Shown here in pieces: positions 2,431 to 23,446 of a DNA stretch of 47,765 nt. The DNA lies in the NCBI GenBank assembly GCA_031280235.1, contig JAITHA010000021.1:1-47765 (forward strand). The letters are read 5' to 3'. Both the position numbers and the translations under genes were made by a program. Within the stretch, counting starts at the first letter, position 1. Every line of letters starts with the position of its first letter. The notes below the pieces were generated by a model. That model was not told the DNA's origin, did not search any database, and worked only from the letters and a program-made list of their open reading frames with translations. Origin of the DNA: Puniceicoccales bacterium. Lineage in GTDB: Bacteria; Verrucomicrobiota; Verrucomicrobiia; Opitutales; UBA953.

Positions 2431-2547
2431 CTACTTTGCCGCCATCCGAATCAGATGTTTCTTCATCTCATTCACCGTTTCATGACCACACTTATTTAGG
2501 CTGGTGCGGCCAAAGGCGGTTTTGGGGAATGTTTTCAGAATCTCCAC
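2431..2547 (-). other. Small ORF or gene remnant overlapping the autotransporter 3' end
   Basis: A minus-strand reading frame of 38 codons runs from a GTG at 2547 to a TAG at 2431-2433. It overlaps the last 13 bases of the autotransporter in another frame. Its C-terminal part is amino-acid diverse and looks protein-like, with FPKTAFGRTSLNKCGHETV followed by NEMKKHLIRMAAK. I recognise no family. It could be the 3' end of an older gene cut off when the autotransporter gene arrived or expanded, or chance. It has no ribosome-binding site and no independent support. Confidence 0.2.
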
Positions 2548-5500
2548 CGGTAGCCAGCGTTGAGAGTCCAGGGGGAGTTGGTTCTTGAGCCGTGGGTGGC
2601 TTCGTAGTCAAAATGCACTTGGTGGGCGGTGTCGGGAGATTGCCAGGTAAGTCCAAAGCCGAATTGGACGAGGGCGCCGTCAAAGTCGGGCGTCCAACGT
2701 TCGGTGGCGGCAGGAGAGAGGACACGAACGGCTCCGCCCTGCCCGCCTCGATATTCGGCACCAAGTTTAAGGTAGGGGACGAGGGTGCCGGAGCTTTCGA
2801 GGCTGAATGTTTTGCCTGCTCGGAGAATGGCTCCGAGGCGTTCGATGTCAGTATCGCTGTTGCGTACACGGAGGCTCTGGCGCGTGTTGTAGCTTTCGGC
2901 AAAGACGTGAGCGTAGGAGCCTTGGAGCGAGGGCTCGAGGAACCAAGGATTTTGGGCGTCACCAAAGGTGAGGTGCCAGCCGAGCTCAAGGGCGAAGCCA
3001 AGGGTGAAGTTGTCGAATTGGCTGCGGTCAGTAGTGGTTTTGAGGGTGGAGTCGTGGCACTCGGCTTGGGCTGTGGCTGAGGCGAAGAGGCCGTTCTTGT
3101 GCTGCCAGGCGGAATAGAGGCTGCTGGCAAAGGTGCTCGTCTCAGTCTTGCCTCGGCTGGCATTGAGGGTGCGCTGCGTGAGAGAGTAACCTGCGTGGAT
3201 ACCCACGAGGAAGGAGAAGGAAGCGTTGGGCTGGGTGAGCGTCTTGTCGCCGCCAATGTCTGCCCCGTATTGGTATTCGTGGAAGTTTGGCACCTCTCGG
3301 ATGCCGTGAGTGATGTTGGTGCGCTGTGCGCGTGCGCGGAACCAGAGGCTGTTGTCGAGGGCTTGCTGGGATGGCCTAACGCGAAGTTCGCCAAGACGTT
3401 TGTTGATGTTGTCGAGTTGGCCGAACCAGGCGGTGGCGAAGGTACCTGCGCCTGTGGCTCCGCCAATGGTCTGGGCGAGCTCACTCAGGCCCGTGGCGCG
3501 CAAGACGGCAGAACCGTCGCCTACGATGTCGAAGGTGTACAAGCCTGCTTCGACGGGAGCCTCGAGGGTGATACGGGCACCGGGGTCGATACGCCCGCCT
3601 TCGATGAGGTTGACGGTTGTCTGGCGCGTGGTGGTGGCGGCGTTAAAGGTTTTGCGGATGGCAAACTCATGTTGCCCAGTCGCATTGCCGCTGTCGGCGA
3701 GGTGGATGCGGTCGGAATGTTCGGGGTCGTTGAAATCGATCTCGAGGCTGTATTTGCCGATGCCTTCCGGGGTGGCGTTGGCGAGGCTTCCGATTCTGAG
3801 GCTCTGGCCGAATGCCCCGAAGTAAACGAGGCCGTCGTTGCGCAAGGTCCCGTCAACGATGTGCCGGGAGATTTCCTTTTTGAGAGCAACTGTGCCACTG
3901 GCGTTGTTGATGACGGTGCCATTGATTTCTGGGGCGATCAGAAGCCCGCTATTATGCACCTCGCGCGCCATGATGAGACCGTCTGCCATGAGCCTTGCAC
4001 CTGCGGTGTTGGTGACGATGGCAGCGCTACCCGGTGTGAGTGGCAGGGTAGCTGCGGTGATGTGGAGGTCGGCGTAGTTCTCTATGGTGTCTGCCTTCAA
4101 CTCGCCCTTGATAAGGAGAGTGCCTGCCTCGTTGCAAAGCTTGGTGAATTTATAGCTTTGGGTCGGATCTGCGAGAGTGAGCGTCGCGGCTCCCTGCTTG
4201 GTAAGCGTACCTGTGCCGATGATCCCGCCTGTGAGCACCTGGTCGTAAGCTTGCGCGAAGACAAGGCTTGAGCCGCCATCGAGAGATATTGGGGCATTGT
4301 AAACGCCGTTGGTTCCCAAAGTGCTGCACAGTTTCAGAGTACTGGAACGCACTACCGTGGAGCCCGTGTAAGTGGCGGCTGTGGTGAAAACAACTGTGCC
4401 ACTCGAGGCCGATATCTCGACAGAACCCGCGCCGGTGATGGGCATACGGATTTCGCCCGGCGTGATGATGCGCAATGCGCCGATGAGGGTGGGCTCCGGC
4501 CCGGTATCCACGGTGCCTGTGCCCAGTGCGTCAATAACGCCGTTGGTGGCGTGCGCGGCGACGAGAGTACCGCCCTCGATGCGGACGCCCCCTGAGAAAG
4601 TACTTGCGCCGGAGAGGGAGAGACTGCCAGAGCCTGTCTTCACCACAGCGCCGCCACCGGAAATGCGCCCCCCGTAGCTATCGGAGAAACCCGAGTTACG
4701 ATCAAAGACGACTGTACCGCTATTTGCGATGGCCGGGATGGCGATCACTCCGCCATTGCCGAAGGTCACCCGCCCGGCGACGGTGAAAGAATCTGCCGCG
4801 ACGTGCGTCCCAAAGGTTACCGTCCCAGCGATGTCCACGATTGGGAAATCTACCTCGTTGTTGAAGCGCGCGATGGCATTGGCATCCACGCGCAAACGCC
4901 CGTCTGCCACGATGAGGCCCGATGAAGCAGCGAGCAGGCCCGCGATTTTGTCGCCATTGAAGATGTAGGTGCTTTGCGAGAGAGTCATGCCGCCGACGAT
5001 GACGCCCGCGCCGCCTGTGTTGACGTGGATAGTCTGCGCGGTGTTAGGATCGCTGGAGAAACGGACGTTATCCCCGTCGTTGAAAAAGAGGCCGTGCACG
5101 TCGCCCTCGCGCCAATTGGCACTCGTGCCCTTATCCCACACGCCCGTGCTTGCCGGGCTGTCCCACGTGAGGGAGAGGTTGGCGCTAGCGTAGGTCTCGA
5201 CGACGAGCTGCTGCCCGTCCGGGCTGAAGACTTGGGCGCGCACGCGCGAGCTGACTCCATCCATCACGACGCCTCTGTACTTGAAGACTGTGGCGGCGAG
5301 ATTCCCTGTGGTGAGGGTGCCCGTGGCAGCGAGGAGCGGGAAACTTCCCGTGTGCCAGAAGTTCGCGCCGTTATCGGTAATGTTGATAGTATTTGGCGAA
5401 ACCACCCCGAAGCTGGCGTCGCCCTCCACGATGATGAAATCGCTGGCGCCCGGTGCGGCATCAAACAAAATCTCGACACCGTTGAGCGCCGTAGTAGTGC

Positions 5501-8500
5501 CGACCTGGCCGAGGGTGAGGGTGCCCACGCTGTTGCCGCCGTTGGCGCCCGGTGCGATGCGTGTACCCGGTTGGAAGGCAGGCTTGGCAACGAGCCCTGT
5601 GCCACTGAGTGTGCCTGAGCTCAACCTGAAAGCGGATGTGATTTGCCCGTTCACCTCAAGCCTGCCGCCTGCCGTAATGTCCACGGTACCAGCCCCATAC
5701 ACTTCGCCATCAAGGCGTCTGGCGCCAGCGGAGGCATCCCAGATGAACAACAGCGCTGCGCCTGTGCCCAGATGGATCCTGCCTCCCTCAGCCAAGGTAA
5801 TGGCATTTTCCACAGACTGGCTATACGTACCCAAATCGAGCAGTGCGCCCGCATGCACCTCAATGCTGGAGAGCGCGTTGAAGACGTTGGCTGCGCCAGC
5901 CTCCACTGTGCCTCGGGAGAGGGTGAGCGCACCAGTGAAATGCGTGCTATTGCCGAAGGTCAGCGTGCCGTCCCCCGCCTTTTCCAAGGCCGCGCCTGTG
6001 AGTGCACCGGAGAGTGTGGCGCTGTGCCCGTTGGTGTCCACAATGGCGCCTGTGGGTGCCGCCAAATGTATGGGGCGCGCGATATTGGCGTCGCCATTGA
6101 AGCGGAGAGTGGCAGCGGTGCCCACCACAGCATCGCCGAGAGTGAGCGTGGCAGCCGTCGCGCCAAGGGCTACATCAGAGTTGACGGCCAGCACGCCTTC
6201 AGCGGCGTACACGCCTCCAGAAAAAGTATTTGAGCCAGAGAGGATGAGCGTGTTAGACCCCGTTTTGACGAGGCTGCCCACGCCGCTGATGTCGCCGGAA
6301 AGCGTCTGCTCCGCAGGCTGAGCCAGTGCCAGCTCGCTCCCATTGGCCAAAGTGATTGAGCCGCCAAACACGTTCCCCGAGCCCAACTCCGAGCGCAAGA
6401 GGAGGGTGCCGCCAGAGATTTCAAGCGAAGTGCTTACCTCCGCCGCGCTACTCACAGTGAGAGTGCCCGCACCTACCTTGGCAAGGGATGTACCCGCGAG
6501 GCTGCCAGCTATCGTGACGGCATGCCCGTTGGTATCCACGCCACCGCCCTGACCTGTGAGGGTGATGGGACGCACGATCTGCGCGTCTGCGTCCAAGCGC
6601 AAAACACCGCGCGCCGCAGTGGAGCCCAATGTGAGCCTGGCATCTGGCGCGCTGAAGGCGTTGTAGGCCGCGCCGAGTGCGCCTTCAGCGGCGATGGCCA
6701 GCGTGCCCGCCTCCACTTGGACACCACCGGTGAACGCGTTGGCACCCGTGAGCAGCAACACGCCCGCGCCTTGCTTCACCACGCGCCCCTGGCCCGATAT
6801 GGGCGCGCCGAAGGCCTTCGTCGCTGTTTCGTTAAATACGACCAAGCTCTGGTTTACTATCCCTCTCAAGATCGCCGAAGCGCCATCTGTGAAACGCGCC
6901 CCGGTGTCGAACACCACCGTAGCTCCGTTGGAGACGACCATCGGTTCGCCCGCCGTGACCTCATTCGCAAAGGTAGCCATACCCTGCACGTTGATTTCCT
7001 TGAAATAGAGCGCATTTTCAAAACGCACCTCGCCCGTACTGGCGACGAACAAGGAGCCATCGGCGAAGCTGGAGATAGCACCAATGGACGCCGTGGACAC
7101 ACCGGCGATTTTTCCGCCCGTGAAAACATAGCCTTGGCCTGTGACGGTCATTTTCCCAGCGATCACGCCCCCGTTCGCTGTCTGCACCCGCACAGCACGC
7201 GTCAATGTCCCTGCATTGGCAAAGGTCACGAGGTCACCGTTTTGGAAACGCTCGCCACTCATGCCGCTTTCGGCCCAATTGGCTGTGGCCGCAAAACCGT
7301 TGTCCCAGATCGCCGATGGCTGACTGTGCACGTCCCACGCGATGTCTGCGCTGTAACCCGGGAGCGTCGTCAACACAAGGGTTTTCCCCACTAACGCGAG
7401 CGAGGCGCCCATGCGTGTGTTGATGTGGCCGATTTCCACGCCGTGATATTTGAAGACAGTGGCGGCCAAAAGATCAGGGTCTATGCTGAGTGTGCCGCCT
7501 GCCTCAAGGATGGTGTAAGTGCCTGCCTTCCACATGGAATTCACGTCGGAGACATTCACCGTGTTTTTCTCAAGGTTGGCGAACTCGGCATCTCCCGCGA
7601 CAAAGATTTTATCCGAGCTCGAACTCCCCGAGACAAAGATGTCCAGCTGCACGTCATTCAATGCGACCTGTGTCGCTACTTTGCCGAGCGTCAGCGTGCC
7701 GGTGCTGCCCAAGGCAATCGAGTCATCCATACCCGGCGCAATCTTGGAGCCTGCGTCGAACAGCGGACTCTCGACAGTCCCCGTGCCGCCGAGTGTCGAA
7801 CCCGCAGCCAAGGAGAGGGGAACGGCAACGGTGCCTGCGACTTTCAAGATGCCCGCGCCCGTCTTGACTACAGAGCCCGTACCCGTGATGTCGCCGGAAA
7901 GCGTTTGCGCGGAGCCCTGAGCAAAAGTGATTGTGGTGCCTGAAAGGGAAATATTGCCGCCATAACTGGCCGATGCGCCCAAGGTGCCCGTCACCTCCAG
8001 CGTGCCCGCAGAGACTGTCGTGTCACCTGCGTAGGTGCTGGCTCCGGCGAGAACTAACTTCCCTACGCCAGCCTTGGTCAGCCCGCCTGTGCCAGTTACT
8101 CGCGTGCTGAGGGTCACGTCGTTGCCGTTCGTGTCCAGCGTGCCGCCATTGCTACCGAGAGGAGCCAGCTTGTTGGAGATATCCACGCTGGAGCCCGAGG
8201 CCCATCGCAGTCCACCACCATCAAGAGTCACATTACCCGCGCCATTGCCCAAATTGGCGAGTGTGGTGAAATGGATGAAGCCGTTGCTAATGGTCGCGCC
8301 TCCCGTATGGGTGTTAGTGCCGGAAAGGGTCAACACACCCACGCCTGACTTGGCCAGTGTGCCGCCGCCGGAAATGACGCCGGAAAGCGTCTGCGCACCG
8401 GCTTGATTGAGCGCGAGTACGCCACCGGTAACGTGGATGGCGCCCGCATAGCTGCCGCTGCCCAAGCTGCCTGTCACCAGAAGCGTGCCGCCAGAAATAG

Positions 8501-11500
8501 CCATGTCGCCCGTATAGGTGTTGCTACCAGAGAGAGTCAGCACACCCGCGCCTGACTTGGCCAGCGTGCCGCCGCCGGAAATGACGCCGGAAAGCGTCTG
8601 CGCACCGGCTTGATTGAGCGCGAGTACGCCGCCGGTAACGTGGATGGCGCCCGCATAGCTGCCGCTGCCCAAGCTGCCCGTCACTTCCAACCTGCCAGCA
8701 GAGACTGTCGTGTCGCCTGAATAGGTGCTGGAGCCAGAAAGCGTCAGCGTTCCAGCATTGGCCTTGGTCAACGGTGCGCTGCCAGAGATTTCTCCCGAGA
8801 GCGTGCCGTTGGTGCCGTTGGTGTCGAACACGCCACCTGTGCCTGCGAGTACGACCGGGCGCGCCACGGTGGCGCCTGTGGCAAAACGCAAGGTGCCAGC
8901 TGTCGTATCGCCGAGGGTCAATTTCGCGTTGGGAGCAGTCGAGCTATCGTAGGCCACGCCAAGATTGGCATCTGCCGAGATGGCGAGCACGCCACCGTCT
9001 TTCACGATCATGCCGCCAGAGAGCATGTTGGTGCCAGTGAGTGTGAGCGCACCCGTGCCAGCCTTGGTAAAGCTGCCTGTGCCGGAGAGAGTTCCGGAGA
9101 GGGTTTGCGCGTCGGTCTGGTCAAATGTGATTGGGCCACCCGTGAGGGTGATGTTGCCTGCGTAGCTGCCGTTGCCGAGAATGCCCGTCACTTTCAGCGC
9201 GCCTGCGTCGACGGTCATATTGCCCGTGTGGGTGCTGGTGCCAGAGAGCGTGAGCGTGCCAGCACCAACCTTCGCCAACGCGCCTGCGCCTGAAATGCCC
9301 GAGGCGAGGGTGACGTCGTTGCCGTTCGTGTCCAGCGTGCCGCCGCCTGTGCCGACGGCCGCCAGGCGCGAAGAAATGTCCGCGCTGCTGGACGTCGCCC
9401 AACGCAACCCGCCACCGTTGAGGGTCACATTGGCACCTGTGCCACCGAAGTTTGTGGCGGCGGAAAACTCGATGGTGCCTGCTTTGACTTCTGTGCCGCC
9501 ACTGTAGGCATTGGTGCCCGAAAGGGCCAACGTGCCTACGCCGATTTTGGTCAATTTGCCTGTGCCTTGGATGTCCGAGGCGAGGATGACATCGTTGCCG
9601 TTCGTGTCCAGCGTGCCGCCGCCTGTGCCGACGGCCGCCAGACGCGAAGAAATGTCCGCGCTGCTGGACGTCGCCCAACGCAACCCGCCACCGTCGAGGG
9701 TCACATTGGCACCTGTGCCGCCGAAGCTCGTGGAATTGCTGAACTGGATGAAACCGCCCGTGATCTTTGTGCCGCCTGAGTAACTGTTGGAGGCGGATAG
9801 GATGAGCGTGCCCGCACCGGCCTTGGTCAACGCGCCTGTGCCCGAGATACTCGTGCCGAGGGTGATGTTGTTGCCATTCGTGTCCAGCGTGCCGCCGCCT
9901 GCGCCAAGGGCTGCCAGACGCGAGGAAATGTCCTCAGTAACGCCCGTCGCCCATTGCAGGCCACCACCGTTGAGGAGCACATTTGCCCCACCCGTGCCAA
10001 AATTGCTGGCGGCACGAAAATTGATGAGGCCACCTGTGACTTCTGTCCCACCCGTATAGCTATTCGTCACGTTGGAGAGCTGGAGAATACCCGCGCCTGC
10101 CTTGATGAGTTTGCCTGCGGATGTATCAGAGGCACGGTTTACCAGTTGCGCGGAAATGTTCAGCCGCGCTTTGGACTCTACATTAAAGGTGATCGCGCTG
10201 ACGTTATTCCCTCTCTGGTTTCCAAGGTGTATACCCCGAAGACCACTACCGGAAGTATCCGAGGTGATGGCGGAAATCGTCTCGGCGTCACCATCCGCAG
10301 CGTCATGGAGCACCGTCACATTTCCCAAGAGCCCGATGGCCTGCCACTTTTGATCAGTATAACCGCCTGTGGCGTGGATCGTCCCGCCCTTCATCGTGAC
10401 AACGCCCAGCTGGTTGTAGCCTGTGCCGGTGTTGTTCCACAGGGTACCCTCAATGATCATCGGGATGTTCATGTGAATCTCGGAACCACCGAAGATATCA
10501 GCCCTCCCGTATTCCAATGTCGCCCCGGACTTGATGGTGATCGTGTGGGTATTCACGTTGCTAAATGGGTATTGCCCATTTTCCAATCTCAGGGTTCCGC
10601 CTTCGATGGTGATGTTTCCAGCAAGATTGGCATTATTGGCCGGGCTGTATATTACCTTGGAACTGCCACTTTTGACGAGATTGCCTGCACCACTTATGCT
10701 CTGAACAACCGTGAGAGCGCTACTGCTGCGCGCAAATTCCAAAGTGCCTCCTGCACTGACGGTCACGTTGCCAAGGTTGGCACTTTTGAAGCTAAGCACT
10801 GCGCCGTCGCCGATGACTACTTTGCCCCCGTCAATTCTCAACGTCGTGGGCACGAAATTACCCGTAAAAATCTGCGTCCCAGCGCCAATTTTGACGAGAT
10901 CAAGCGGACTTCTTGGGTCCAAGACCATAGTCCCGACGCCACTATTTGTCCCCGTGATCGTCCCCGCAAAAGTGTGCGTCTTCTCCGCAGTGACGCCCCG
11001 GCCAATCGTGAGGGTGCTGGTACCGCTTTGGCTGCGGACAATGTATCCCGTTCCTGTAATTCCGCCGAAGGAGATATTGAGCCCACGCATGTCGAAACGA
11101 CCGTATGGCCCTACATTCAAGTCCGCCATGTTGTTTGCCGCGTTTGCAGCATTATCCGCTCCATTGATAGTACCCGAGCGAATATCGATCAGGGAACCAG
11201 CTCCAAACGCCACGGTGGAGCTACTGCCGAAGACAAGCGCCTGCACGTTGCCTGCATCCCCCGAAATACTCGTCCATCCGCTATCGACAATGAGGGTACC
11301 TCTCCCACTCAGGTTTATACTGCTGATATGACCATTGTTTTGGGCGTTGATTTCCAAAGTTCCCCCATCAAAGACATACTTTCTGTTGAGAAGGTTCGTG
11401 TCGCTGGCACGAGTCCAATAGATCCTGCCGCCTTCCTTGATGTCACACTGCGGGATGCCACTGGTGCTGGCGGTGAATTGTAGAGTTCCACCTTCCACAA

Positions 11501-12683
11501 CAATCTTTCCGGCGAAAGAACCTGCGCCGAAACTCAGTACGCCTGCGCCCGTCTTGGTGAGCGTACCGTTCCCAGAAGGCGACGCACTGAATGTGACGTT
11601 ATTGCCATTGGTATCGAGGTTTCCCCCGTTAGCACCAAAGGAAAGCCGGGAAGAGACATCCGCTGTGTTTCCCGTAGCCCATTGCAGGCCACCCCCGTCG
11701 AGAAGAATTGTGCCGACCGGACCCAAAGTGCCAATGGCTTTGAAGTTGATGTAACCACCTCTGATAGTCGTGCCACCCGCATAGGAGTTTGCTTCGTTGG
11801 TCAACGTAAGCGTGCCACTGCCAGCCTTGATGAGGGCAAAGGAAGTGTTGTTGGCCGCAGCGCCGAAAGACGACTCATCTCCCGTAGCCGGGCCTATTCT
11901 TCCGTGATAAGTCCCGCTTCCGCTCGTGGTCACATAGGTTTTGGCAGGTTCGGTGCCAAGGGTCGTGCTCCCCGCGTGGATACCAAATTCAGCGAGGGCA
12001 GCAACAGCATCTCCCGGAGAGGAAATCTGGGCAAGGTCGCCCGAACTGTTGAGATAGTAGCCGCTGGAAGTCGATGAAGTGACGTCACTGCCGACCGGAA
12101 GGCCCGAAGCGTCCAACAAGGGAAGTTGGGCGGCGAGTTCTCCCCCTATCTGAAGGGTACAGCTGGCGGAATTGGCGCCGATGACCGTTCCAGGCACGCC
12201 GTCCAAAGAAGCAATTTTTGTGACCTCGCCACCAGCACCACTATTCAGGCGAATTCCGCCGGAAAGGATGTTCAGACCGCCGACGCCAAGGATGCTGCCG
12301 TCGGCATTGACGCCAGCATCGGTCCAGCTCAAAAGGAGGCCACGCAAGCCCGTGCCTTGCCAGTCAACGGTGACCTTGCCAAAAAAGCCGCGACCATCGG
12401 AAGCAAAATCAATATGGTCATCGCTCTGCCTGATGATGATCTCCTTGGTAGAGTCGCCGATAAGGATGCCCCTAAAGGTGCTGCCGGAGCCCCCTGCATT
12501 AAAGGTGAGCAAGCCCCCCTGCAAAAGGACGAAAGTGTCGGAAGAATCATCAACGCTCCTCTCCGTCGGAGCACTGAGGGTAACGTCTGCAGCCTGAGAC
12601 GAACTGCCCGGGGCGAAAGCGACAGCGGCAGCAAATAGGACAGTCTTGGCAAGACCCCTATAGAGACGGGATGTATTTCTCAT
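2535..12683 (-). CDS. Giant autotransporter with PATR-type passenger repeats
   Basis: This 3,382-residue protein is a type V secretion autotransporter. A Sec signal peptide is visible at about residues 1-31 (basic start MRNTSRLYRG, hydrophobic stretch, cleavage near SSSQAA). The passenger consists of many beta-helix repeats of the autotransporter-associated beta-strand (PATR) kind, each with a core like GAGTLTLSGTNTYSGGT. The C-terminal ~272 residues (from NSLWFRARAQ) form the beta-barrel translocator, ending in the outer-membrane signature GYRWRF. The passenger should be displayed on the cell surface; an adhesive role is only a guess because no enzymatic domain is visible. The reading frame is open back to 13037, but I chose ATG 12683 because the signal peptide begins there. 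The bases before it (CTCCCTCCTTCCTC) are pyrimidine-rich with no Shine-Dalgarno sequence. The passenger contains near-identical tandem duplications and a diverged repeat of about 721 codons. Confidence 0.93.
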   Translation of the reverse strand: MRNTSRLYRGLAKTVLFAAAVAFAPGSSSQAADVTLSAPTERSVDDSSDTFVLLQGGLLTFNAGGSGSTFRGILIGDSTKEIIIRQSDDHIDFASDGRGFFGKVTVDWQGTGLRGLLLSWTDAGVNADGSILGVGGLNILSGGIRLNSGAGGEVTKIASLDGVPGTVIGANSASCTLQIGGELAAQLPLLDASGLPVGSDVTSSTSSGYYLNSSGDLAQISSPGDAVAALAEFGIHAGSTTLGTEPAKTYVTTSGSGTYHGRIGPATGDESSFGAAANNTSFALIKAGSGTLTLTNEANSYAGGTTIRGGYINFKAIGTLGPVGTILLDGGGLQWATGNTADVSSRLSFGANGGNLDTNGNNVTFSASPSGNGTLTKTGAGVLSFGAGSFAGKIVVEGGTLQFTASTSGIPQCDIKEGGRIYWTRASDTNLLNRKYVFDGGTLEINAQNNGHISSINLSGRGTLIVDSGWTSISGDAGNVQALVFGSSSTVAFGAGSLIDIRSGTINGADNAANAANNMADLNVGPYGRFDMRGLNISFGGITGTGYIVRSQSGTSTLTIGRGVTAEKTHTFAGTITGTNSGVGTMVLDPRSPLDLVKIGAGTQIFTGNFVPTTLRIDGGKVVIGDGAVLSFKSANLGNVTVSAGGTLEFARSSSALTVVQSISGAGNLVKSGSSKVIYSPANNANLAGNITIEGGTLRLENGQYPFSNVNTHTITIKSGATLEYGRADIFGGSEIHMNIPMIIEGTLWNNTGTGYNQLGVVTMKGGTIHATGGYTDQKWQAIGLLGNVTVLHDAADGDAETISAITSDTSGSGLRGIHLGNQRGNNVSAITFNVESKARLNISAQLVNRASDTSAGKLIKAGAGILQLSNVTNSYTGGTEVTGGLINFRAASNFGTGGANVLLNGGGLQWATGVTEDISSRLAALGAGGGTLDTNGNNITLGTSISGTGALTKAGAGTLILSASNSYSGGTKITGGFIQFSNSTSFGGTGANVTLDGGGLRWATSSSADISSRLAAVGTGGGTLDTNGNDVILASDIQGTGKLTKIGVGTLALSGTNAYSGGTEVKAGTIEFSAATNFGGTGANVTLNGGGLRWATSSSADISSRLAAVGTGGGTLDTNGNDVTLASGISGAGALAKVGAGTLTLSGTSTHTGNMTVDAGALKVTGILGNGSYAGNITLTGGPITFDQTDAQTLSGTLSGTGSFTKAGTGALTLTGTNMLSGGMIVKDGGVLAISADANLGVAYDSSTAPNAKLTLGDTTAGTLRFATGATVARPVVLAGTGGVFDTNGTNGTLSGEISGSAPLTKANAGTLTLSGSSTYSGDTTVSAGRLEVTGSLGSGSYAGAIHVTGGVLALNQAGAQTLSGVISGGGTLAKSGAGVLTLSGSNTYTGDMAISGGTLLVTGSLGSGSYAGAIHVTGGVLALNQAGAQTLSGVISGGGTLAKSGVGVLTLSGTNTHTGGATISNGFIHFTTLANLGNGAGNVTLDGGGLRWASGSSVDISNKLAPLGSNGGTLDTNGNDVTLSTRVTGTGGLTKAGVGKLVLAGASTYAGDTTVSAGTLEVTGTLGASASYGGNISLSGTTITFAQGSAQTLSGDITGTGSVVKTGAGILKVAGTVAVPLSLAAGSTLGGTGTVESPLFDAGSKIAPGMDDSIALGSTGTLTLGKVATQVALNDVQLDIFVSGSSSSDKIFVAGDAEFANLEKNTVNVSDVNSMWKAGTYTILEAGGTLSIDPDLLAATVFKYHGVEIGHINTRMGASLALVGKTLVLTTLPGYSADIAWDVHSQPSAIWDNGFAATANWAESGMSGERFQNGDLVTFANAGTLTRAVRVQTANGGVIAGKMTVTGQGYVFTGGKIAGVSTASIGAISSFADGSLFVASTGEVRFENALYFKEINVQGMATFANEVTAGEPMVVSNGATVVFDTGARFTDGASAILRGIVNQSLVVFNETATKAFGAPISGQGRVVKQGAGVLLLTGANAFTGGVQVEAGTLAIAAEGALGAAYNAFSAPDARLTLGSTAARGVLRLDADAQIVRPITLTGQGGGVDTNGHAVTIAGSLAGTSLAKVGAGTLTVSSAAEVSTSLEISGGTLLLRSELGSGNVFGGSITLANGSELALAQPAEQTLSGDISGVGSLVKTGSNTLILSGSNTFSGGVYAAEGVLAVNSDVALGATAATLTLGDAVVGTAATLRFNGDANIARPIHLAAPTGAIVDTNGHSATLSGALTGAALEKAGDGTLTFGNSTHFTGALTLSRGTVEAGAANVFNALSSIEVHAGALLDLGTYSQSVENAITLAEGGRIHLGTGAALLFIWDASAGARRLDGEVYGAGTVDITAGGRLEVNGQITSAFRLSSGTLSGTGLVAKPAFQPGTRIAPGANGGNSVGTLTLGQVGTTTALNGVEILFDAAPGASDFIIVEGDASFGVVSPNTINITDNGANFWHTGSFPLLAATGTLTTGNLAATVFKYRGVVMDGVSSRVRAQVFSPDGQQLVVETYASANLSLTWDSPASTGVWDKGTSANWREGDVHGLFFNDGDNVRFSSDPNTAQTIHVNTGGAGVIVGGMTLSQSTYIFNGDKIAGLLAASSGLIVADGRLRVDANAIARFNNEVDFPIVDIAGTVTFGTHVAADSFTVAGRVTFGNGGVIAIPAIANSGTVVFDRNSGFSDSYGGRISGGGAVVKTGSGSLSLSGASTFSGGVRIEGGTLVAAHATNGVIDALGTGTVDTGPEPTLIGALRIITPGEIRMPITGAGSVEISASSGTVVFTTAATYTGSTVVRSSTLKLCSTLGTNGVYNAPISLDGGSSLVFAQAYDQVLTGGIIGTGTLTKQGAATLTLADPTQSYKFTKLCNEAGTLLIKGELKADTIENYADLHITAATLPLTPGSAAIVTNTAGARLMADGLIMAREVHNSGLLIAPEINGTVINNASGTVALKKEISRHIVDGTLRNDGLVYFGAFGQSLRIGSLANATPEGIGKYSLEIDFNDPEHSDRIHLADSGNATGQHEFAIRKTFNAATTTRQTTVNLIEGGRIDPGARITLEAPVEAGLYTFDIVGDGSAVLRATGLSELAQTIGGATGAGTFATAWFGQLDNINKRLGELRVRPSQQALDNSLWFRARAQRTNITHGIREVPNFHEYQYGADIGGDKTLTQPNASFSFLVGIHAGYSLTQRTLNASRGKTETSTFASSLYSAWQHKNGLFASATAQAECHDSTLKTTTDRSQFDNFTLGFALELGWHLTFGDAQNPWFLEPSLQGSYAHVFAESYNTRQSLRVRNSDTDIERLGAILRAGKTFSLESSGTLVPYLKLGAEYRGGQGGAVRVLSPAATERWTPDFDGALVQFGFGLTWQSPDTAHQVHFDYEATHGSRTNSPWTLNAGYRWRF
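8343..8684 (-). repeat. Near-identical 135-bp direct repeat in the autotransporter passenger
   Basis: Bases 8343-8477 and 8550-8684 are nearly identical 135-bp units offset by 207 bp (69 codons), differing at only a few positions. Both encode the segment SGVISGGGTLAKSG and its flanks, including GSLGSGSYAGAIHVTGG. The in-frame spacing keeps the beta-helix register. Such close identity points to a recent duplication or gene conversion and makes the locus prone to copy-number change and assembly collapse. Confidence 0.85.
9301..9730 (-). repeat. Second near-identical direct repeat in the autotransporter passenger
   Basis: Bases from about 9301-9450 recur at about 9577-9726, offset by 276 bp (92 codons), with only scattered differences. 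Both copies encode RWATSSSADISSRLAAVGTG followed by GGTLDTNGNDV. A more diverged relative lies at about 9840-9990. This is a second in-frame tandem duplication, independent of the one at 8343-8684. Confidence 0.8.
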
Positions 12684-12914
12684 GAGGAAGGAGGGAGTTA
12701 AGATTTGATAAATAAGACCGGAGAGGGGTGGCATCCTGACGCGGTGCCCCGAATGTCCAAGCAAAAAGTTCTGACACCTCAAGAATGGAGATTCCGCCTC
12801 CGTTTTTTTGTGTGGAACTTTGGGAGACTTGCTTTGTTGTCCTCCAGAGAAATCCGTGCCTGCCCTTGGCGCAGCCACGCCATATTGCACAAACAATCCG
12901 ACCGGACCACGCAC
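12684..12914. promoter_or_regulatory. Divergent intergenic region between autotransporter and ECF S-component
   Basis: These 231 bp separate two divergently transcribed genes and must hold both promoters if the chosen starts are right. I see no convincing -35/-10 pair, riboswitch fold or operator. A purine-rich run (GGAAGGAGGGAG, 12686-12697) on the plus strand is the complement of the pyrimidine-rich leader of the autotransporter. It lies ahead of a TTG at 12705 that I do not think is a real start. Confidence 0.4.
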
Positions 12915-13448
12915 ATGACATCCTTCGCCGCCACCTCGTCCATCACACTGCCAACCCTGCGCTGGCGCCAACAGAGCCTGTATCTCTGGAGCGCCGCCTT
13001 TGTGGCAGGCAACCTCGCCCTGCCACAGCTGTGCCACCTCGCCAACAACGGGGGCCGCATGTTTCTGCCCATTTACTTCTTCACCCTCGTAGCGGCATCG
13101 GCCTTCGGCTGGCGGGCAGGCGTCTTGACGGCGCTGGCCTCACCGTTGCTCAACCACGCGCTCTTTGGGATGCCACCCTCTGCCACGCTGGTGCCCATCG
13201 TGGCCAAATCGCTATTGATCGCTGCGCTGGCGCCCGTGTTACTGCGCCGCTTCAAACTGCTGCCACTGGCGCTACTGGCCATCGTGCTGGGCTATCAGGT
13301 GCTCGGCGGCCTCTTTGAATGGGCATGGACGGGCAGCCGCGACGCCGCGCTACACGATTTCACCATCGGCTGGCCAGGTATGGCGCTGCAAGTGCTCGGC
13401 GCCTGGGCGGTGCTGTTTCTCGTGAACCAAACCCGCAAAAACCAGTAA
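12915..13448 (+). CDS. ECF transporter S component-like membrane protein
   Basis: This 177-residue protein is almost wholly hydrophobic, with about six membrane segments separated by short loops. The motifs FLPIYFFTLVAASAFGWR, ASPLLNHALFGMP and FEWAWTG resemble small substrate-binding S components of energy-coupling-factor vitamin transporters found in Bacteroidetes and Verrucomicrobia. The ligand cannot be read from the sequence. The frame is open from a TTG at 12705, but I chose ATG 12915 because the extra 70 residues are polar, arginine-rich and unlike a membrane protein. It ends 3 bp before the phosphoribosyltransferase gene, so the two are surely cotranscribed, which hints at a nucleobase-like or related substrate. 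No ECF ATPase or T component is in the window. Confidence 0.65.
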   Translation: MTSFAATSSITLPTLRWRQQSLYLWSAAFVAGNLALPQLCHLANNGGRMFLPIYFFTLVAASAFGWRAGVLTALASPLLNHALFGMPPSATLVPIVAKSLLIAALAPVLLRRFKLLPLALLAIVLGYQVLGGLFEWAWTGSRDAALHDFTIGWPGMALQVLGAWAVLFLVNQTRKNQ

Positions 13449-17427: not shown

Positions 17428-19863
17428 TTATTTCTTCTTTTTCACCAAAACCGTGTCCGCAGCTTTTTGCTTTGGCTTACTAGCATCACTTTTCTTATTT
17501 GCCGGGGCCGGTTTGCGCTTCTTCCGCTTGGAACCCGGCTCAGAGTAATAGCGACCGTAGGCGCGATCATCCGCGTTGGTGTAGTAGCGGACGGAGCTCA
17601 TGCCGATTTGGTTGAGAACACCTCCGAAGATGGGAATCTTTGTTTCCCTCAAACGATTGAGGCTGGCCGCGATAAAGCGTTTTCTAACGGAGTTGAAACG
17701 AATCACATACAGAATGCCATCCACCTTGGGGATGAGGTTGAGCACATCACTGACAGCGCCAATCGGCGGCGAGTCCACGAGAATACGGTCGTAGCAAGAA
17801 CGCAATGTCAGGAGCATTTCTGCAAATTCCGGGCTGTTGAGCCAACGCATCGGATCCTCACCCCTGCGTATTTTCCCGGCAGGCAAGATGTCGAGATTCT
17901 TGACAAACTCGTAGTGAATGGCTTTTTCCAAGGTGCAGGTGCCGCGCAGGTGGGGTAAAATGCCCTGCGTTTCGTTCAGTTGGAGAGTCTCGGCGACAAC
18001 GGGCATGCGCAAGTCGGCGTCGACAACCAAAACGCGTTCGCCCTGCCGCGCATACATCATCGCCAAGTTAGTTGTGACAAATGACTTCCCCTCGCTTGGC
18101 GAAGTGCTGGTAGTGAGAAGGACGCGTGCCCTTTTAGCCGTCTCATTGATTTTCAATGCTGAGAAAAGAGAACGAAACGCCTCCGTTGTTGCGATATCCT
18201 TGCCTGTCGAGATGAGCTTAGCCTTAGCGTATGCATCGCGGCGACGAACTGTTGGCAGGATGCCGATGAGTTGAAGCCTGAGAAAACGCTCAATGTCGTC
18301 GACGGATTTCACGCGGTCGTCGAGAGTGGCGAGGGCGAAAACAAGGGCGAGGCCCAATGCCACGCCGGCGAGGAGGCCGAGGCCACCACCTTTCCAATAG
18401 TCTTTGTTGATGGCTTTCATCTGAACGAGACGTGCCTCTTCTTGAACGGCGATGTTGAGGAGCTGTGCACCCGTATGCCGCAAGCGCTCCGCTTCGAAGG
18501 CGGTACGCATTGCACGACGCTGCACCTCTTTCTCCTCAATCAGGCGGCGCACTTCTGTATATTCGTACTGAGCTTTTTGCAATTTCTCTCCGTCCTCGAT
18601 GACTTTGTCTCTTTCTTTTTTGGCGAGCTCCACTCGGCCTTCGGCAAGAGTCAACTCCTCCTTAAGTCTTGATTCCGCGTCCAAGACGGCACGCTCGAGA
18701 GCAGCCTCTTGCGATTGCAGCCTTCGACGCATCGCTTTGACTGATGCGTGCTCTTCGGTGTAGCGCTCAAGGAGCGCTGCGATGTCTGCCTTTAGCGTGT
18801 TGACCTGCCCAGCGCTATAAAGCACGTCGCTGACTTGGGCAATTTCCCGAAAGGACTCTTTGAGCCCTTCTGTTTGCTTGGTTCTCTTAATTTCTTCGAT
18901 TCGAGCGAGCACCTCTTTTCGTTCACCGTGCTCGGATTCTCGCAGGCGGACTTTAGCCTCGGCTTCCGTCAACAACAAAGCCTGACGGCCCGTCAATTCA
19001 TCGCGTACGAGCAGCTGCGGATATTGGGAGAGAATCTCGTTCCTCCGCCGATGCAGATCGCTCATCTGTCTCTCGGCATTGTCAAGTTCCGTCGCCGAAT
19101 GGTCCAAGGATTTGCCTGTCAACTTGAGACGGCTTTCATCTGCCTCTTCGCCTATTTCTTTGGCAAAGAGGTTGGCCATTTGGATGGCGATGACTGGATC
19201 TGGGTGGAAGTAAGTCACTTCCACCATCAGAGAACCGCGCTCGGGAACAATGGCCCGACATGCCGTGGCGACTTCTTCTGCTGTGAGTGGCCCGGAGAAG
19301 ACATTCCCAGCCTGATAGGGCTTGAGCACGGCATCGCGCAATTCAGTATCCATGTTCTTCAACACTCGCCTCACGACCGAGGAGCCTTTCATTATCGAAA
19401 CTTGTGTGTTCAAATCTTCCTGTGAACCAATGCCTTCGCTATCGATGTTCACAGAGCCACCAGTCAGGGCTGCCGTCGAGTAAGAACGGCGGAAGAGCCG
19501 CAACTTGGAAGACGCCATGTACTCCGGGGTGCGGTTGGCGATATATATCACACCACAAAGACAGCCGGTTAGGACGAAGAAGAAGAGTATCAGCCAGCGC
19601 TCGCGAATCATGAGCAGGTAGTCGCGCAGGGAATGAGCAGCAGTCGCCCCTTCAGCTTCGCCGTAGCCATGGTAATCTTCCTTCCCGTAGCCTCCGTACG
19701 ATGCCCCTTTGCCGTAACCGCCATAATTGCCGTGGCCGTAACCGCCATAATTGCCGTAGCCACCATAACCACCGTAATTTCCGTAGTTATTATGGACACC
19801 ATAGGCCTCTGGCTCCGAATGCTCGGAAGACGGCGGTGCATGATTTTCGTTTTTTTTCGACAT
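17428..19863 (-). CDS. Wzc-type polysaccharide co-polymerase / tyrosine autokinase with Gly/Tyr-rich N-terminus
   Basis: This 811-residue inner-membrane protein controls exopolysaccharide chain length and export. A Wzz-type domain is flanked by two membrane segments (about residues 88-108 and 491-511), with a long coiled-coil periplasmic part between them (ERQMSDLHRRR, EEHASVKAMRRRLQSQEAAL). The cytoplasmic BY-kinase domain has Walker A TSTSPSEGKSFVTTN (about 583-597), Walker A' VLVVDADLRMP and Walker B ILVDSPPIGAVSD. The C-terminus has a modest tyrosine set (RYYTNADDRAYGRYYSEP) and then a lysine-rich tail. The odd feature is residues 21-67: 13 tyrosines in 47 residues, mostly as YGG and YGN units, placed before the first membrane segment and so predicted cytoplasmic. 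BY-kinases normally carry their tyrosine cluster only at the C-terminus. The export lipoprotein and beta-barrel genes lie immediately upstream. Confidence 0.93.
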   Translation of the reverse strand: MSKKNENHAPPSSEHSEPEAYGVHNNYGNYGGYGGYGNYGGYGHGNYGGYGKGASYGGYGKEDYHGYGEAEGATAAHSLRDYLLMIRERWLILFFFVLTGCLCGVIYIANRTPEYMASSKLRLFRRSYSTAALTGGSVNIDSEGIGSQEDLNTQVSIMKGSSVVRRVLKNMDTELRDAVLKPYQAGNVFSGPLTAEEVATACRAIVPERGSLMVEVTYFHPDPVIAIQMANLFAKEIGEEADESRLKLTGKSLDHSATELDNAERQMSDLHRRRNEILSQYPQLLVRDELTGRQALLLTEAEAKVRLRESEHGERKEVLARIEEIKRTKQTEGLKESFREIAQVSDVLYSAGQVNTLKADIAALLERYTEEHASVKAMRRRLQSQEAALERAVLDAESRLKEELTLAEGRVELAKKERDKVIEDGEKLQKAQYEYTEVRRLIEEKEVQRRAMRTAFEAERLRHTGAQLLNIAVQEEARLVQMKAINKDYWKGGGLGLLAGVALGLALVFALATLDDRVKSVDDIERFLRLQLIGILPTVRRRDAYAKAKLISTGKDIATTEAFRSLFSALKINETAKRARVLLTTSTSPSEGKSFVTTNLAMMYARQGERVLVVDADLRMPVVAETLQLNETQGILPHLRGTCTLEKAIHYEFVKNLDILPAGKIRRGEDPMRWLNSPEFAEMLLTLRSCYDRILVDSPPIGAVSDVLNLIPKVDGILYVIRFNSVRKRFIAASLNRLRETKIPIFGGVLNQIGMSSVRYYTNADDRAYGRYYSEPGSKRKKRKPAPANKKSDASKPKQKAADTVLVKKKK

Positions 19864-19927: not shown

Positions 19928-20548
19928 TTAGTAAAGACTTTCAGAGACATATATCCTGTCTCCTTCCTTGAGTGGGAAATCCTGAACATTCCCTTTTACG
20001 AGGTCATCATAATCGATGATATAAGTCTCGATCTGACCATTCTCTTCACGCAACAACTTGATGCCGCTCTTGGAACCTCTTGGAGAAATATCTCCCGCGA
20101 GAGAGAGAGCAGACATGAAAGTGATACCACCCAACTCATGCCTAAGCTCAACAGGGCCCGGCCTCACGACAAAACCGAAAAACGTTACATATCTCGGTCT
20201 TGTGCTATCAATACGCACAACGACTGTGGGATTTTTAAGAAACTTCTGGTAGATACTTTCCACCTTTACCTTGATTTCATCGAGCGTCATGCCCTCGACT
20301 TTCAAGAGCTGGTCATACATTTTCAGCTGTATCTCCCCCTTACTGGAGACGAGCAGCGCGTTCGTGGAGAGATCCGACTCGCCATGGAAGTCCAACGAGA
20401 CCCTGTCCCCCGGTCTCACCCGGTAGTTGTGCTTATTCTCGGCTTCGCCAGCTGGCGGATAGCGCGTTGACGTACAAGCCGTCAGTGAAAAGCAGAGCAG
20501 GCAGGCAAATAAGACATTCCTAAGAATTGAGTTACTTGAGTATCGCAT
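19928..20548 (-). CDS. Polysaccharide export lipoprotein (Wza/OPX family)
   Basis: The 206-residue protein has a signal peptide ending in the lipobox SLTAC (Cys25), then a poly_export domain (NYRVRPGDRVSLDFHGESDL, about residues 40-60) and a SLBB-like part (TFFGFVVRPGPVELRHELGG). It should form or contact the outer-membrane exit for exopolysaccharide. It is shorter than classical Wza (about 380 residues): only one SLBB-like domain is visible and there is no C-terminal amphipathic pore helix. The adjacent beta-barrel protein may therefore supply the outer-membrane channel, as proposed for OPX-barrel partnerships. The kinase gene starts 64 bp downstream in the same direction. Confidence 0.93.
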   Translation of the reverse strand: MRYSSNSILRNVLFACLLCFSLTACTSTRYPPAGEAENKHNYRVRPGDRVSLDFHGESDLSTNALLVSSKGEIQLKMYDQLLKVEGMTLDEIKVKVESIYQKFLKNPTVVVRIDSTRPRYVTFFGFVVRPGPVELRHELGGITFMSALSLAGDISPRGSKSGIKLLREENGQIETYIIDYDDLVKGNVQDFPLKEGDRIYVSESLY

Positions 20549-20597: not shown

Positions 20598-21854
20598 TCA
20601 GTATTTGAACTTGGCCGAGAATTCCACCAAGTTGGCGCCATAGCCCTGAAACCTGTGCAAACCTTTGGAGTCGACCCCAAGGAAGCGGTACCCGAGGCTA
20701 AGCTGCCAGTACTTGTTGGCGACGTAGCTAAAGCCCGTGCCCACGGAGTAAACGTGATCCTCGCGATCCACTGGCTTGTTGAAATCCTGATAGGCATAGG
20801 AAGCCGTAAGGAGCCAATGCCAGCGAGAAAAGAGACTGACCTGCGTACCAATGTTCACAAAAGTGTTCGTCAAATCTTGGGCCTGCCCACCAACTTGGAA
20901 ACGACGCCCCGCAATCACTGACAAGCGCATGCGCGAGGAAACTTGGTAATTGGCGTTCAAACTGAAGTTAAAATTGGAACGCGTATAGTTGTCATCCGCA
21001 GCAGCGCCAAAAGTGCCGTTCCCGAGCTGGTCCAAGCTGTAGGAGCGCCCGTGCGTCTGGAGGAAACTGTAACCGACATCTGCGCGAACATTCAGCCGCT
21101 GGGAGACGTCACCTTTGATGTTCAGGCCGAAGTAATACTGGTCCATCGTGCCGGGGTCTTGAAACCAGTAGGAGCCAGTGCCGCTTTGGCTCTCGTTCTC
21201 GTGGATATCGGAGTAAGTGTAGGTAAAAGACAGACCAGCTTGGATTTTTTCAGTCATCGCATAGCTCAGCGAAATTGGCACCGAGTGCCCCTCCCTGTCG
21301 TTAAAGAACTGGCGGAAGTCCTCAAAGTGCTCTTGGGAATAGCGGTAGCCTGTGTTGAAGGAAAACTTGGTCGAAAATTGATAACTGAGATCCACGTTGG
21401 CACCCAACTCGTAGCGGTGGACGATGTCGCCGACAGCGTAAATGATGTTGTCGTTTTGGGCGCTCTGCCGGAAGGAACCGCTGATCCCCAAGCGTAAGCG
21501 CTTCTTGGGGTCGAAGGTGTAGGAGACGAACGCATCTGCGATTTGCGTGCTCATGTCGTCGTGTTCGATGTAGTTCTGAAATGTCTCCCTGAAAACAAGA
21601 TTGAACTGATTGATGCTGTCGCGCCCAGTCTCGAGGTGGATGCCGATGACGCCCGTCGCGAGGGTATCAGTGACTCGTTTTTTCGACGCGAAAATGTTGT
21701 CGGAATAAGCAAAACCTCCTTCCGCAGTGACGTATAGCAGCGAGTTATTCCCAAACTGAAGAAGGGGGGAATCAGCTTTAGCTTTGATACTACCGAGCAA
21801 TGGCACCATTGCCACCAGCCCAAGTATCGTTGTTGCCTGTGTAGTTGCTCTCAT
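20598..21854 (-). CDS. Outer-membrane beta-barrel protein (BBP2-like) of the exopolysaccharide module
   Basis: This 418-residue protein has a signal peptide (MRATTQATTILGLVAMVPLL, cleavage near KAKA) and a mature part made of alternating hydrophobic strands with aromatic girdles, such as YRYSQEHFEDFRQFFNDREG and WQLSLGYRFLGVDSKGL. It ends in FSAKFKY, an outer-membrane C-terminal signal. The pattern fits the putative beta-barrel porin 2 family (BBP2), often next to exopolysaccharide export genes. It would act in the outer membrane, probably as the polysaccharide channel partner of the short OPX lipoprotein encoded 49 bp downstream. A GTG at 21872 is possible; ATG 21854 gives a better signal peptide. 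Confidence 0.82.
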   Translation of the reverse strand: MRATTQATTILGLVAMVPLLGSIKAKADSPLLQFGNNSLLYVTAEGGFAYSDNIFASKKRVTDTLATGVIGIHLETGRDSINQFNLVFRETFQNYIEHDDMSTQIADAFVSYTFDPKKRLRLGISGSFRQSAQNDNIIYAVGDIVHRYELGANVDLSYQFSTKFSFNTGYRYSQEHFEDFRQFFNDREGHSVPISLSYAMTEKIQAGLSFTYTYSDIHENESQSGTGSYWFQDPGTMDQYYFGLNIKGDVSQRLNVRADVGYSFLQTHGRSYSLDQLGNGTFGAAADDNYTRSNFNFSLNANYQVSSRMRLSVIAGRRFQVGGQAQDLTNTFVNIGTQVSLFSRWHWLLTASYAYQDFNKPVDREDHVYSVGTGFSYVANKYWQLSLGYRFLGVDSKGLHRFQGYGANLVEFSAKFKY

Positions 21855-21890
21855 CTTTGTAGTCTTGTGCACTGTAAGTTGCTTAAAAAC

Positions 21891-22904: not shown

Positions 22905-23348
22905 TCAACGCCTAAACGCAACCCGGCATACATCCAGCAAGGCAAACACAGCCTCTTGCACGCGCGGCAATTGGGTCTCTGGCGGCGCATCATCCGTGTC
23001 GTGGATGTCCCAATATTCCACGCGATCTTCCCAACCGGGATGGAGCCAGCGGAGCATCGCGTAATGCTCGTCGCGCTTGAGGGCGACGATGTGCTGCGCA
23101 GTGGCCAAATCCGTGTTGGATACCTGCTGCGGGTACGTCGCCGTGCACGTGAGCGGGATGCCCCTGGCGCGCAACGCCGCCACTGTGTCCGGCGAGATTC
23201 TGTCGGGGAAATCCTTCACCAAGTATGCCGCCACCCCTCGCGAGAATGCGCGCGCCGCGATACCCTCACGCTCGGCGTAGTAGTTGAAGATTGCCTCGGC
23301 AAAACGGCTGCGATAGTAATTACCTGTGCACAAAAAAAGTACCTTCAT
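22905..23348 (-). CDS. Low-molecular-weight protein tyrosine phosphatase family protein
   Basis: The 147-residue product starts with MKVLFLCTGNYYRSRFAEA, which holds the phosphatase P-loop C-x5-R (Cys7 to Arg13). The length and alpha/beta layout match LMW-PTP / arsenate reductase-like enzymes. The general-acid DP motif usual near residue 120 is not obvious; DIHDTDD is the best candidate. It could dephosphorylate the tyrosine kinase encoded at 17428-19863, as Wzb does for Wzc, but nadK and about 1 kb of other sequence lie between, so this is inference. ATG 23348 was chosen over upstream starts because the P-loop normally begins within ten residues of the N-terminus. Confidence 0.8.
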   Translation of the reverse strand: MKVLFLCTGNYYRSRFAEAIFNYYAEREGIAARAFSRGVAAYLVKDFPDRISPDTVAALRARGIPLTCTATYPQQVSNTDLATAQHIVALKRDEHYAMLRWLHPGWEDRVEYWDIHDTDDAPPETQLPRVQEAVFALLDVCRVAFRR

Positions 23349-23446
23349 GAGGACAAGGCATGGGAAAAACCGCGCCAAAAGGCAATGCGCCGCAAAGCCA
23401 AAACTCATGTTGACCACCCACGCTTCTTCCCCCACCCCTCGCAGCC

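Follow-up and report, generated by a model that had tools for sequence, protein, structure and literature searches.

The question raised by this locus is what a segment crowded with tyrosine and glycine is doing at the N-terminus of a kinase belonging to a polysaccharide export system. In the window, by which we mean the whole analysed stretch of 47,765 nucleotides, the protein that bears this segment combines a polysaccharide co-polymerase of the Wzc type with a BY-kinase domain. It scores 127.9 bits against TIGR01007 in a profile search (cut-off 108.05), and its nearest solved kinases by sequence in the PDB are VpsO, BceF, Wzc, CapB and Etk. The AlphaFold model, numbered from Ser2, has a mean pLDDT of 76, exceeding 90 over most of the kinase domain, and Foldseek finds structural matches to Wzc (9r64, 7nhr) and to the CapAB kinases (4jlv, 3bfv); the full-length match to Wzc has an E value of 1e-24, yet a global TM of only about 0.35-0.4. 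Two predicted membrane helices, at model residues 89-108 and 488-513, flank a periplasmic domain (113-484), and the kinase lies on the same polypeptide. The Walker A, A' and B motifs are present, and the invariant kinase columns of the ortholog alignment, whose numbering is one lower than that of the protein, are E590, G591, K592, D614, D616 and D696. A profile search of the contigs of its own genome returned one such BY-kinase match, the window protein itself, and the named relatives closest to it are Verrucomicrobiota MAGs of the Puniceicoccales/Opitutales. The gene and the parts of it discussed below are:

17428..19863, minus strand: Wzc-type BY-kinase / PCP-2 co-polymerase, 811 aa (TIGR01007; AlphaFold model with Foldseek)
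19663..19803, minus strand: Tyr/Gly-rich arm, residues 21-67, 13 Tyr, predicted disordered (sequence and pLDDT)
19537..19629, minus strand: equivalent of helix alpha-1 (RDYLLMIRER) and first membrane helix, residues about 79-109 (AlphaFold model)
18001..18111, minus strand: Walker A (TSTSPSEGKS) to Walker A' (VVDADLRMP) (invariant alignment columns)
17545..17589, minus strand: C-terminal tyrosine cluster RYYTNADDRAYGRYY, Tyr 760, 761, 769, 772 and 773 (ortholog alignment)
17431-17544, minus strand: C-terminal extension rich in Lys, behind the tyrosine cluster (sequence)

An earlier note on this DNA had counted 13 tyrosines within residues 21-67, mostly as YGG/YGN units, and had placed them before the first membrane segment; our count agrees, and so does the position of the first predicted membrane helix. 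These tyrosines (positions 21, 27, 30, 33, 36, 39, 42, 47, 50, 56, 59, 64 and 67) make up 13 of the 35 in the whole kinase, and no phenylalanine or tryptophan occurs among them. Residues 1-75 of the model have pLDDT values below 50, so that the N-terminus is predicted to be disordered, and directly after it model residues 78-87 and 89-108 are predicted to form helices, with a DYLxMxRERxW motif conserved among the orthologs at the alpha-1 helix. The two-helix topology, together with the C-terminal kinase, would place the arm on the cytoplasmic side of the membrane. The segment is neither an annotation artefact nor an accident of composition. Within the first 100 residues the only in-frame ATG, GTG or TTG codons are those of M1 and M85, and since M85 lies inside the conserved helix, any protein with the whole helix ahead of the first membrane segment must contain the tyrosine patch, which rules out a wrong start codon. 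None of 20,000 shuffles of the window kinase reached 13 tyrosines in any 47-residue window, and seven of the 11 matches to YGxYG-type DNA in the genome fall inside the kinase gene, the other four being single and scattered; chance or biased composition as the origin of the arm is thereby ruled out. Its codons are mixed for both tyrosine (TAC 9, TAT 4) and glycine (GGC 9, GGT 6, GGA 2, GGG 2), which shows that the arm is not a pure DNA repeat.

The arm is not peculiar to this protein. Orthologs were picked by their score against a whole-alignment model and by an RERxW-type motif before the first membrane helix, the presence of an arm not being a criterion, and a Y/G-rich N-terminal arm with at least 3 Tyr was found in 96/96 distinct Opitutales (Verrucomicrobiota) orthologs, all of which have intact catalytic motifs. 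The earlier note had proposed a search for homologous N-terminal extensions and named their absence from all close relatives as what would speak against its idea; with an arm in every ortholog, that objection clearly fails. The arms range from 25 to 107 aa (median 55) and from 3 to 19 tyrosines (median 8.5), and they do not align with one another, their composition being what is kept. Outside the ortholog clade, the arm was absent from all kinases sampled, namely Opitutales paralogs, 40 loci of other orders or classes of the phylum, ten plasmid-borne BY-kinases whose starts are annotated (of Pseudomonadota, Deinococcota, Bacteroidota, Actinomycetota and Cyanobacteriota) and Wzc and Etk of E. 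coli, the plasmid-borne and E. coli proteins representing the phyla beyond Verrucomicrobiota. In a FastTree phylogeny of 103 kinases, computed with the arm left out, the 34 arm-bearing proteins form one side of a single branch with a support of 100, and the presence of the arm changes once, as one gain with no loss needed. It therefore appears from these sequences that the arm arose a single time, in the ancestor shared by the Opitutales orthologs. A second arm-bearing copy of the kinase was seen in a genome of the same genus (locus L031, genome G002), where a reduced tyrosine patch lies behind a long His/Arg/Pro-rich N-terminus and no adjacent OPX gene was detected.

What has been conserved in the arm seems to be tyrosine itself. 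Between the first and the last tyrosine of the arms, the 96 orthologs hold 871 Tyr, 3 Phe and no Trp, while the protein body contains 3.3% Tyr and 3.4% Phe. Across 40 sister pairs without overlap, tyrosine is retained at 93% of aligned arm positions versus 70% for other arm residues, a gap part of which could stem from the alignment matrix. Replacement of tyrosine by phenylalanine between sister species is free of this weakness, because the matrix rewards Tyr-Phe matches, and it accounts for 1/46 replacements in the arm versus 80/178 in the body (p = 2e-9). Moreover, arm tyrosine codons show synonymous differences at 28% and amino-acid differences at 7%, the corresponding figures for other non-glycine arm codons being 25% and 18%. 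The rarity of phenylalanine and the codon pattern together indicate that tyrosine as such, and not just an aromatic ring, is kept, whereas position and order drift.

The C-terminal end of the kinase bears on the same question. The modest C-terminal tyrosine set described in the earlier note is present, and across 32 aligned orthologs (alignment numbering one lower) Tyr 769 is invariant and Tyr 761, 772 and 773 are found in at least 90%. The conservation of this cluster rules out that the arm has replaced it; with both the cluster and the catalytic motifs intact, the arm is an addition. The lysine-rich tail that the note had seen behind the cluster was found in the window protein but in none of the relatives aligned with it, and it is thus no part of the conserved feature. 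For comparison with the part of BY-kinases established as phosphorylated, we took 66 distinct C-terminal tails from outside the clade, counting tails with at least 3 Tyr, and from the first to the last tyrosine these hold 534 Tyr and neither Phe nor Trp. The arm shares this hallmark of acceptor tails, tyrosine being kept with phenylalanine and tryptophan excluded (Tyr:Phe:Trp of 871:3:0 vs 534:0:0). However, the arm is 41% Gly and 30% Tyr, versus 44% Tyr and 4.5% Gly in the outgroup tails; it does not have the dense YY/YS make-up typical of most acceptor tails, and it is N-terminal where they are C-terminal. The likeness is therefore limited to the signature of tyrosine without phenylalanine and to a subset of tails built on YG repeats, which outside the clade occur in part of Etk (AYSYGYNYYGYSYSEKE), in a Bacteroides plasmid kinase (YGYRYGYRYGYHYGYGSGYH), in a Sphingomonas plasmid kinase and, as (YG)n, at locus L148. 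The tail at L148, from a genome of the same phylum (G215), consists purely of (YG)n units, with a Lys/Arg-rich end behind them. The number of tyrosines in the arm correlates negatively with that in the C-terminal tail (rho -0.44 overall, -0.36 and -0.31 within two groups), a relation that is confounded by shared ancestry.

The kinase gene belongs to an export locus with the following neighbours:

19928..20548, minus strand: polysaccharide export protein of the OPX type, directly next to the kinase on its upstream side (PF02563 Poly_export, 53.2 bits)
20598..21872, minus strand: putative outer-membrane beta-barrel protein (weak DUF2490 and BBP2_2 matches)
22905..23435, minus strand: low-molecular-weight protein tyrosine phosphatase (PF01451, 53.4 bits; P-loop CTGNYYRS)

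An OPX homolog adjoins the kinase at 80/82 ortholog loci. A homolog of the outer-membrane-like protein lies upstream at 52/82, as well as at 8/8 of the larger loci of the same genus or family, and this protein is probably the third part of the export cassette. The phosphatase gene is 3 kb from the kinase gene, with an NAD kinase gene between it and the cassette, and its product is a candidate eraser of the marks set by the kinase; the genome encodes a second low-molecular-weight phosphatase on contig C57. A conserved linkage of phosphatase and kinase is unsupported, the position of the phosphatase near the kinase varying among the loci of relatives. Elsewhere in the genome there are three Wzy_C proteins and one Glycos_transf_4 enzyme; in this assembly, which is 83% complete, a Bac_transf (PF02397) initiating sugar transferase was not found and a flippase (PF01943) gave a sub-threshold match only. 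The window also contains a very large autotransporter-like open reading frame of about 3500 aa (2535-13037, minus strand), which has a barrel-like C-terminal end and long tandem DNA repeats at 8302-8748 and 9251-9933.

Our preferred reading, to which we would assign a probability of roughly 0.45, is that the arm may serve as a second multi-tyrosine phospho-acceptor that tunes the assembly of the kinase ring. In Wzc of E. coli K30, the C-terminal tail inserts into the active site of the neighbouring subunit, and alpha-23, at the base of this tail, is packed against helix alpha-1; none of the tail tyrosines is by itself required or sufficient, and the octamer fraction drops as Tyr-to-Glu changes accumulate (PMC8285477; PMC11986026). 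Phosphorylation outside the kinase tail also has a precedent in L. rhamnosus, where Wze is reported to phosphorylate the membrane modulator Wzd (PMC4340800). On this model, a disordered cytoplasmic Tyr/Gly arm would have been gained once ahead of a Wzc-type BY-kinase in the common ancestor of these Opitutales orthologs. Because the disordered N-terminus of the predicted structure runs straight into the alpha-1 equivalent and the first membrane helix, the arm would depart from alpha-1 within the ring, beside the base of the C-terminal tail, from where it could reach the active site of a neighbouring subunit. The kinase would then phosphorylate arm tyrosines, the low-molecular-weight phosphatase would clear them, and the number of phosphates rather than their exact position would shift the balance between assembled and dissociated rings, a balance that may in turn gate polymer growth and export. 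A switch that counts phosphates would be expected to keep its tyrosines while their positions drift. Against an acceptor role we count the glycine-dominated composition of the arm and the variable position of the phosphatase; moreover, with a normal C-terminal cluster already in place, there is no a priori need for a second acceptor. To the wider proposal we give an even chance: that Opitutales BY-kinases carry two acceptor clusters, one C-terminal and the other the N-terminal Y/G arm before the first membrane helix, and that phosphorylation count, possibly along with a self-association that phosphorylation dissolves, adds a second regulatory layer to export.

The main rival, which we regard as unlikely, holds that the arm is a low-complexity segment of tyrosine stickers whose weak contacts, Tyr-Tyr and Tyr-Arg, would cluster rings at the membrane independently of phosphorylation. 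Predicted disorder and tyrosines set apart by glycine or small polar spacers, the hallmark of sticker domains, are found in the arm, as are a near-zero net charge and few hydrophobic residues. However, sticker domains commonly tolerate phenylalanine and tryptophan, which the arms nearly lack; some orthologs have only 3 to 5 tyrosines, which amounts to low valence; and the segment belongs to a tyrosine kinase, in which use as an acceptor is the simplest reason for a specificity for tyrosine. Since tyrosine reportedly outdoes phenylalanine as a sticker in condensates (PMC12677899), the exclusion of phenylalanine does not by itself decide between acceptor and sticker. Of the two readings offered in the earlier note, the phospho-acceptor is favoured by the selection for tyrosine over phenylalanine and by the match to the signature of acceptor tails, and self-association through tyrosine stickers stands as a competitor that can coexist with it. 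A combined model, in which the unphosphorylated arm would self-associate and phosphorylation would dissolve the clusters, the kinase thereby controlling the clustering of its own export machine, unites the points made for both and fits all the data, and by analogy it may parallel the way in which phosphorylation drives the Wzc octamer apart (PMC8285477); as an account in its own right we hold it to be rather improbable.

Two further explanations were weighed. The arm could be a docking site at which another cytoplasmic protein, such as a polymerase, a glycosyltransferase or a phosphatase, binds the unphosphorylated Tyr/Gly repeats, and a composition conserved without order would suit a multivalent, fuzzy kind of docking; we find this very doubtful, as the only genes seen travelling with the kinase are those of the OPX and outer-membrane proteins, whose products lie outside the cytoplasm. 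The least probable explanation, in our opinion, is that of a low-complexity spacer that evolves neutrally or under weak constraint, is spread by slippage of repeats and has no specific function. The wide range of arm lengths and the frequent indels between sisters are what such a spacer would produce, but its retention in every ortholog, the near absence of changes from tyrosine to phenylalanine, the mixed codons and the excess of synonymous over amino-acid change at tyrosine sites, stronger there than at other non-glycine sites of the arm, argue against it. The last two observations likewise disfavour DNA slippage without constraint on the protein.

Among known systems, the CapAB, CpsCD and Wzd-Wze pairs of Gram-positive bacteria resemble the window protein in the fold of the kinase domain (4jlv, 3bfv), but they are split over two polypeptides whereas the window kinase is one, and no Y/G-rich arm of this kind was described for them in the literature searched. 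FUS-type prion-like domains, with tyrosines spaced by glycine, serine and asparagine, few phenylalanines and a disordered state, belong to eukaryotic RNA-binding proteins. The arm, which is carried by a membrane tyrosine kinase, resembles them in these features, and no homology is claimed. In the open-licence literature searched we found no description of an N-terminal tyrosine-rich region in BY-kinases and no phosphotyrosine study of Verrucomicrobiota; the arm is thus apparently an undescribed, clade-wide extra module on a member of a known family. Its natural variants, with their different lengths and numbers of tyrosines, provide material for asking whether such a segment acts as acceptor, as sticker or as both. 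Another close parallel is with Wzc and Etk of E. coli (PCP-2a), which share with the window protein the kinase fold, two membrane helices, the Walker motifs, a C-terminal tyrosine cluster and an OPX neighbour, but which differ in having a short N-terminus before the first membrane helix, with no tyrosine in the E. coli version. In E. coli Wzc it is the extent of tail phosphorylation, and not any one tyrosine, that sets octamer stability and polysaccharide output, and the Opitutales kinases, with a second segment in which tyrosine is the only aromatic kept beside the helix that couples tail to membrane, would provide a testable prediction of this reading by phosphate count.
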